Below the pieces are notes generated by a model. The model made no database searches and was not told the DNA's origin. It saw only the letters and a list, made by a program, of their open reading frames with translations. Positions 16,097-16,898 of a stretch of 36,267 bases of DNA are shown here, one piece after another. The first letter of the stretch is position 1, and each line of letters opens with the position of its first letter. The position numbers and the translations under genes were made by a program. This DNA is from a virus: the IMG/VR virus record IMGVR_UViG_3300036985_000672, positions 1 to 36,267 of that record. The stretch is one strand, 5' to 3'.

Positions 16097-16348
16097 ATGG
16101 AATACGACAATACTAATCGCGGTACGTTAGGTAAGAACGCTAACAAGAAGTCTGATAGTCATCCTGACTACTCTGGTCAGTTGAACATTGACGGAGTGGA
16201 TTACTGGCTATCAGGCTGGCTTAAAGAGTCTAAGAAGGACGGTACTAAGTTCTTTAGCCTAGCGGTTAAACCTAAAGACTCTAAGCCTAGCAAAGCTAGA
16301 CAGAAGCCTGAGTTTCAAGATGATGATCTTTCAGACGCACCCTTCTAG
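16097..16348 (+). CDS. Small SSB-like protein with acidic C-terminal tip
   Basis: 83 residues. Residues 10-60 read like a short beta-barrel (DYSGQLNIDGVDYWLSGWLKESKKDGTKFFSLAVKPK), with aromatic residues spaced as in small OB-fold or DUF736-like proteins. A Lys/Ser linker follows and the protein ends DDDLSDAPF. That acidic tip ending Pro-Phe is the same type as the SSB tail (DDDIPF), which recruits repair proteins. Directly after ERF it is probably the ssDNA-binding partner. Fold is inference; the tip is seen. Confidence 0.65.
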   Translation: MEYDNTNRGTLGKNANKKSDSHPDYSGQLNIDGVDYWLSGWLKESKKDGTKFFSLAVKPKDSKPSKARQKPEFQDDDLSDAPF

Positions 16349-16357
16349 GAGGAAACT

Positions 16358-16504
16358 ATGAAATACCTATTTGCCCTATGGCTAGCAGTTGCAGCACCTA
16401 TGGTTTATGCCGCTTGCACCTACCATACCTATTGTGATGCTGGTCGTTGCGTAACGTGTACAACTTGCTGTTACGGAGCCTCATGTAATACCAACTGCTA
16501 TTGA
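16358..16504 (+). CDS. Secreted 8-cysteine peptide (48 aa)
   Basis: AGGAGG precedes the ATG at 16358. Residues 1-18 form a signal peptide (MKYLFALWLAVAAPMVYA), probably cut before Ala19. The remaining 30 residues carry eight Cys (20, 26, 31, 34, 37, 38, 43, 47), enough for four disulfides, plus Tyr/Thr and few charges. It should be folded in the periplasm or secreted. Tyr at -3 from Cys20 makes lipoprotein processing less likely. It resembles no phage enzyme I know; superinfection exclusion or envelope interference are guesses. Confidence 0.7.
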   Translation: MKYLFALWLAVAAPMVYAACTYHTYCDAGRCVTCTTCCYGASCNTNCY

Positions 16505-16706
16505 TCTACGGGGGAAAGCGGATGCCAGCTTTTCGATTATCAAATCGTCAAGGATAGAACTGGTGTAGCGAGTACCCCACCCTTATCGCCTAGCTAGTGG
16601 TGGCGGGTAACCCTAGCAGCATACGCAATGCTCCTTTACATGGCTTTCCATTCATTGTGAGTATGCAGACAGCCCGGAAAGACGGGCATAACCAACCGAG
16701 GAACCA
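16505..16706 (+). ncRNA. Structured non-coding RNA / leader of the Cro-like gene
   Basis: No gene here, but five successive helices: P1 16513-16519/16528-16534 (GGAAAGC with GCTTTTC, one G-U); P2 16535-16538/16543-16546; P3 16573-16581/16599-16609 (TACC-CCACC with GGTGG-CG-GGTA); P4 16619-16630/16653-16666 (GCATAC-g-CAATG with CATTG-tga-GTATGC) enclosing ATGG-CTTT-CCAT at 16640-16651; P5 16672-16676/16683-16687 (GCCCG-GAAAGA-CGGGC). GAGGAACC and the ATG of the HTH gene follow. No tRNA shape and no U-run. It may be a riboregulator, a processed RNA or a leader. Confidence 0.5.
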
Positions 16707-16898
16707 ATGAAACTACTAGACTTTCTGAAATTACAATTCGACATTAAGAATGATCGTCAACTAGCCCTAGCTTTAGGTGTTCAAGCACCAGCTATCAGCA
16801 AGATTCGTAACGGTCATTCATCCATCACGGCTGACTTTATCCTGAAGGTACATGAGACCTTTGAGATTCCAGTTAAGGACATTAAGGCACTCATATGA
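16707..16898 (+). CDS. Cro-like HTH (XRE) regulator (63 aa)
   Basis: 63 residues. NDRQLALALGVQAPAISKIRNGHSSITADFILKVHETFEIP fits the five-helix lambda-Cro/XRE fold, with QAPAISKIRNG as recognition helix. It likely binds operators in this genome, with the direct repeats at 14514-14557 as a first candidate. It could be the sole regulator, since no CI-like or integrase gene is present. It follows the structured RNA and overlaps the MazG-like gene by ATGA. Confidence 0.85.
   Translation: MKLLDFLKLQFDIKNDRQLALALGVQAPAISKIRNGHSSITADFILKVHETFEIPVKDIKALI

Follow-up and report, generated by a model that had tools for sequence, protein, structure and literature searches.

Nucleotides 16505-16706 of the virus sequence analysed here (the window, a 36.3-kb stretch from IMG/VR record IMGVR_UViG_3300036985_000672) form a real folded RNA built as a chain of three modules: module A, a short H-type pseudoknot followed by hairpin P3, and a GACA/GAAAGA hairpin (Table 1). 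The structured phage RNA proposed in an initial annotation of this DNA was borne out by covariation in homologues and by pattern searches in which stems were left free. That annotation had described 200 gene-free bases carrying one RNA of five consecutive helices. Open reading frames of 40 aa or more are absent from the region on both strands, and the helices exist, but they belong to a chain of separable modules rather than to a single five-helix RNA. A CTAG/CTAG helix in the middle is likewise present, not as a plain helix but as stem 2 of an H-type pseudoknot whose other stem is CGCC/GGCG, and the nested helix formerly called P4 stands pair for pair and is named P3 here. The RNA lies between a gene for a Cys-rich peptide and a Cro-like gene; the operon around it runs rightward and includes Erf, SSB, and MazG genes, and the late region of the virus is podovirus-like (portal of PHROG 1216, terminase, scaffold). 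The 2.2-kb region showed no DNA similarity to named phages, a tRNA search of the window found none, and within the window no promoter-like site was found from 16325 up to the modules, nor any terminator-like site in their surroundings.

Table 1. Features of the RNA locus, in positions of the window, with sequences written as DNA.
Feature	Position	Strand	Sequence or basis
Single-stranded DNA-binding protein gene (SSB)	16097-16348	+	PHROG 7364, E 1.9e-20; usual kind of gene upstream of modules
48-aa Cys-rich peptide gene	16358-16504	+	N-terminal signal-like stretch; recurrent neighbour of modules; stop codon 16502-16504, 5 nt before the module A outer stem
Module A	16508-16581	+	68-sequence alignment
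Module A outer stem	16510-16513 / 16575-16578	+	GGGG / CCCC
Module A internal loop	16514-16516 / 16571-16574	+	GAA opposite AGTA
Module A GC/GC pairs	16518-16519 / 16568-16569	+	GC / GC
Module A inner stem	16525-16528 / 16560-16563	+	CCAG / CTGG
Module A apical hairpin	16534-16538 / 16543-16547	+	CGATT / AATCG
Module A tail	16579-16581	+	ACC
H-type pseudoknot	16587-16617	+	S2 complementarity in pattern matches; counted pairs
Pseudoknot S1	16587-16590 / 16602-16605	+	CGCC / GGCG
Pseudoknot L1	16591-16592	+	TA
Pseudoknot S2	16593-16597 / 16613-16617	+	GCTAG / CTAGC
Pseudoknot L3	16606-16611	+	GGTAAC
Hairpin P3	16619-16666	+	
P3 outer stem	16619-16624 / 16661-16666	+	GCATAC / GTATGC
P3 internal loop	16625 / 16658-16660	+	G / TGA
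P3 inner stem	16626-16630 / 16653-16657	+	CAATG / CATTG
P3 apical loop word	16631-16637	+	CTCCTTT
GACA hairpin	16668-16687	+	GACA, stem GCCCG 16672-16676 / CGGGC 16683-16687, loop GAAAGA 16677-16682
Cro-like HTH gene	16707-16898	+	PHROG 4441/638; Shine-Dalgarno GAGGA 16698-16702

Folding energy of the single sequence was dropped as proof of an RNA, as it was no better than chance: the + strand has a minimum free energy of -59.4 kcal/mol (z -0.56), 57 of 200 shuffled sequences fold as low, and the - strand gives z +1.07. The initial annotation had counted such a result against an RNA, and by energy alone the RNA would be lost; covariation rescues it. We retrieved 38 viral contigs through the Cro-like protein and not through the RNA, and their gaps upstream of the Cro-like gene hold the same RNA with changed stems. 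Pseudoknot and P3 were then aligned in the window and 22 relatives, the loci coming from the protein search and the element being placed by a loose pattern, and pairs were counted directly against a structure written by hand (S1 CGCC/GGCG; S2 GCTAG/CTAGC crossing S1; P3 with its G/UGA internal loop). In this alignment 98.0% of cells pair, compared with 83.0% after shuffling, 71 cells carry changes on both sides (27 shuffled), and double compensatory changes occur at 10 of the 20 pairs. The covariation score is 0.418; shuffled alignments give 0.158, and shifting the structure by 1-3 columns gives no more than 0.068. Non-Watson-Crick stem cells are G-U or U-G far more often than A-C (12 versus 2 in P3, 12 versus 0 in module A), indicating that it is the + strand transcript that folds and not the DNA.

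The modules recur in hundreds of other phages. A scan for module A with the outer stem left free matched at least 119 stretches, in more than 100 contigs and with near-perfect complementarity; in 119 of 139 distinct copies, each of the four outer pairs, unconstrained in the search, is Watson-Crick. Its invariant strands, GAAAGC-GAU-C and G-AGCGAGUA, were partly imposed by the search pattern. GAA opposite AGUA would correspond in sequence to a G-bulged motif of the loop E (sarcin-ricin) type. Apically the module varies, down to a bare GAAA loop in one locus (L405). No Rfam family matched module A above its cut-off, only unrelated families at chance level, and the 12 matches in 398 Pseudomonadota genomes, most of them without the full motif, are probably chance. 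Module A could already be listed in a large survey of structured viral and phage RNAs.

Two pseudoknot patterns, in which the loops and the ends of S2 were fixed and two S2 pairs left free, matched at least 119 and 114 stretches, again in more than 100 contigs with near-perfect complementarity. Both free pairs are perfectly complementary in 97 of 97 and 83 of 84 distinct matches, in at least eight combinations. Named carriers are Pseudomonas phage F116 and its relatives, Cronobacter phage JK004, Klebsiella plasmids of about 110 kb, which we take for phage-plasmids, and prophage CBW1004C-Prop1, where a YqaJ gene ends 8 nt before the pseudoknot. The match in Synechococcus phage S-SRP01 is weak (E 0.1). 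Matches in Arthrobacter and Erwinia phages, also weak (E 0.1-0.5) and overlapping annotated genes, were treated as chance; a search for variants of the S1 stem gave two unconvincing candidates only, and E. coli genomes held no pseudoknot match.

P3 begins one base after the pseudoknot. Its six-pair outer stem is found in 62 of 96 distinct loci, compared with 9 in shuffles, with 32 different 5' strands; 42 of the 62 carry a GA bulge on the 3' strand. The apical loop is enriched in CU-rich words resembling an anti-Shine-Dalgarno sequence: among the 96 distinct segments downstream of a pseudoknot, UCCUU occurs in 27 (7.4 shuffled, 0 on the reverse complement) and CUCC counts 57 (32 shuffled). The CU word is missing in some close relatives (L027, L030). 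A run of T follows P3, just past the pseudoknot, at two loci (L251, L062), and in these few phages hairpin and run may double as an intrinsic terminator. The GACA hairpin lies within 170 nt downstream of 24 of 173 distinct pseudoknots, with six different stems, and of none on the reverse complement; conversely, 37 of the 52 occurrences of GACA-stem-GAAAGA-stem in the collected loci lie within 220 nt 3' of a module A or a pseudoknot. Module A and then the pseudoknot stand in series in 42 cases, and module A is often solitary, with no CU-rich loop. The modules recombine and are swapped between phages.

The modules often begin 5-9 nt past a stop codon, with a preference for SSB and recombination genes. 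Of 139 module A copies, 99 have the stop codon of a long open reading frame 1-12 nt upstream (mode 5-6 nt), as do 85 of 194 pseudoknots, compared with 6% of random positions. This signal is partly trivial, since in a compact phage genome whatever lies between genes is close to a stop codon. No close stop codon was detected for 30 of the 139 module A copies or for 86 of the 194 pseudoknots, many of the latter because module A intervenes. The next start codon is typically 5-25 nt past module A, and the gene nearest upstream of the pseudoknot, as placed by a crude gene caller, is co-directional at 156 of 181 loci. Genes preceding module A fall into 75 clusters and genes following it into 74, some of them crude calls; the commonest recognisable ones before it encode SSB, Gp2.5-like and Enc34-type ssDNA-binding proteins, RecE, and YqaJ. 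The pseudoknot is also found after SSB or exonuclease genes; in one group, at the 3' end of an early operon that faces a convergent operon with a lysozyme-like gene (named by eye); in F116, between divergent genes at the head of the early operon; and within long non-coding regions with tRNA-like pieces. The common denominator of these contexts is an untranslated stretch of phage transcript and no particular gene. Among the non-coding regions, JK004 has a tRNA-like gene (L161, 3859-3982) with a large insertion before the T arm that ends just upstream of the pseudoknot and scores 27.7 bits with the Rfam tRNA model, under the cut-off of 29. In two Klebsiella plasmids of about 110 kb (L164, 3912-5686; L165, 3906-5551), some 1.7 kb without listed genes carries tRNA-like pieces around the pseudoknot, one of which ARAGORN calls as tRNA-Gln in L165.

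An Rfam scan, proposed in the initial annotation, returned only tRNAs at the gathering threshold across the window and 12 loci, and nothing in the window itself. Below threshold, the pseudoknot resembles Proteo-phage-1 (RF03044), which is likewise, by its name, set in phages and prophages. The Proteo-phage-1 consensus has the same core (S1, A-GCCGG, AGUG, S1', AAC, ACCGGC, AGC) and lines up with S1, S2, AAC, and AGC of the pseudoknot copies, and the best RF03044 match falls on the pseudoknot in the records whose coordinates were compared (E 0.003-0.02 per record in the best cases). Scores reach 9-26 bits (best 26.1) against a cut-off of 42, with 0 of 39 records above it. Moreover, the 82-position model has a 5' hairpin where the window and many loci have a stop codon or module A instead, and in our copies S1 is GCC/GGC, L1 has two bases, and the bulged P3 is often next. 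Given the scores under the cut-off and the missing 5' hairpin, we regard the pseudoknot as a short relative of Proteo-phage-1 and not a member. None of the papers searched names the family, which reportedly stems from a 2017 study. A bacterial genome (G104, contig C12, 285359-285566; L421/L424) holds a tandem pair of Proteo-phage-1 matches.

It is conceivable, if somewhat doubtful, that the GACA hairpin, module A, and the short pseudoknot together with P3 make up one undescribed phage RNA system of interchangeable modules, placed in the untranslated gaps of ssDNA-handling operons in many distantly related phages and recognised by a common host factor. Phage genomes spare little non-coding sequence, yet compensatory change keeps these modules in carriers that are at most distantly related (the podovirus of the window, F116, Klebsiella phage-plasmids, CBW1004C-Prop1). 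They tie Proteo-phage-1, an orphan class in Rfam, to SSB and recombination operons and to phages in culture such as F116, provide it with a defined pseudoknot, and contribute module A, which Rfam does not contain; their function is now testable in a laboratory phage.

As to that function, we tentatively propose that the modules may be cis-acting elements of untranslated gaps in phage transcripts, with a role in stability or processing. Lying in an untranslated gap of an ssDNA-handling operon, where RNA is not covered by ribosomes, the compact folds would offer their invariant unpaired bases to a host factor that is widely conserved or, alternatively, would act as nuclease roadblocks, so that the mRNA might be protected, processed, or insulated between or after genes. 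A guard or processing element fits all of the contexts; invariant loop bases and CU-rich apical loops, which exceed the needs of a roadblock, count against it, as do the partly trivial stop-codon signal and the copies with no stop codon detected close by. A rival reading is a phage sRNA released from the early transcript and acting in trans, with the pseudoknot giving stability or binding protein and the CU loop of P3 pairing with Shine-Dalgarno sequences of host or phage mRNAs. This reading, which fits most of the contexts, is plausible but rather doubtful: the enrichment of UCCUU and CUCC, the presence of CU-rich loops also where no co-directional gene follows, and the typing of the related Proteo-phage-1 as sRNA by Rfam speak for it, while the window yielded neither a promoter nor a terminator for such an RNA, module A often stands alone, and L027 and L030 lack the CU word. 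A leader controlling the HTH/MazG genes, as suggested in the initial annotation, is unlikely and found no support as a general role, since modules of unchanged form recur next to unrelated genes and ahead of convergent operons, as well as at the F116 operon head and in tRNA-like regions. Control of translation of the adjacent Cro-like/MazG gene is quite improbable, although UCCUU (16632-16636) could form five pairs with the GAGGA of the window; L030 and L027 lose the loop word yet keep the Shine-Dalgarno sequence, the genes downstream fall into many clusters, and some copies have no co-directional gene downstream. The same low probability applies to a leader bound by SSB as in T4, where a pseudoknot between cistrons is recognised by gp32 (PMC535899). 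Among the recognisable upstream neighbours SSB genes are the most frequent, and both pseudoknots are tied to a phage SSB gene, but the T4 operator is 5' of the gene that it represses, whereas the modules lie 3' and also beside many other genes.

A role in modifying RNA polymerase, which would let it transcribe on across terminators and untranslated gaps, is unlikely. It has a precedent in HK022 put, another phage RNA of untranslated early transcript, which acts by RNA alone through two stem-loops downstream of early promoters (PMC9378689), and the F116 early operon head, post-stop gaps, and tRNA-like non-coding regions are places where it would be of use; however, put as published has two stem-loops and no pseudoknot and does not resemble the modules, and operon-end copies before convergent genes have nothing downstream to express. 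Folded single-stranded DNA serving recombination, replication, or packaging has been discussed for STAXI (RF01728), whose pseudoknots, reported from Enterobacteriales, stand in series near SSB and other DNA-handling genes (PMC2864571). Neighbouring SSB, Erf, YqaJ, and RecE genes and the shuffling of modules between phages agree with such a role, which is nevertheless very unlikely because G-U is tolerated and A-C almost not, and the strand is locked to transcription. STAXI is similar to the modules in setting only: SSB proximity is common to both, but STAXI repeats one pseudoknot two or three times whereas three different modules stand in series here, and its model was unmatched at E up to 5-10 in the window, L362, and L161. 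The RNA of type III toxin-antitoxin systems (ToxI) also forms pseudoknots that can occur in series; in contrast, no such toxin is annotated beside the modules in the window or its named relatives, and the modules differ among themselves. Stimulation of stop-codon readthrough or frameshifting, for which a pseudoknot 4-9 nt after a stop codon is suitably spaced, is extremely improbable and was rejected, as each of the three reading frames past the stop codon remains open for a median of only 11-20 codons, with no clear preference among them.

Two further elements occur near the modules. The Cys-rich, signal-bearing peptide gene (signature CTTCCYG..C) is a cassette: the window copy precedes module A, in L032 it separates module A from the pseudoknot, and it adjoins module A in other phages (loci L026, L304, L344, L357, L372, L381, and L401). 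In L023-L039 a fourth long helix module, CCAAGACGCATGACC ... GGTCAGCCGTGTTGG, lies no more than about 250 nt ahead of the cro-like gene, with compensatory-looking variants (CATGAGGATT/AGTCCTCA and GATGAATGAGTAGG/CCTACTCATCCATG).
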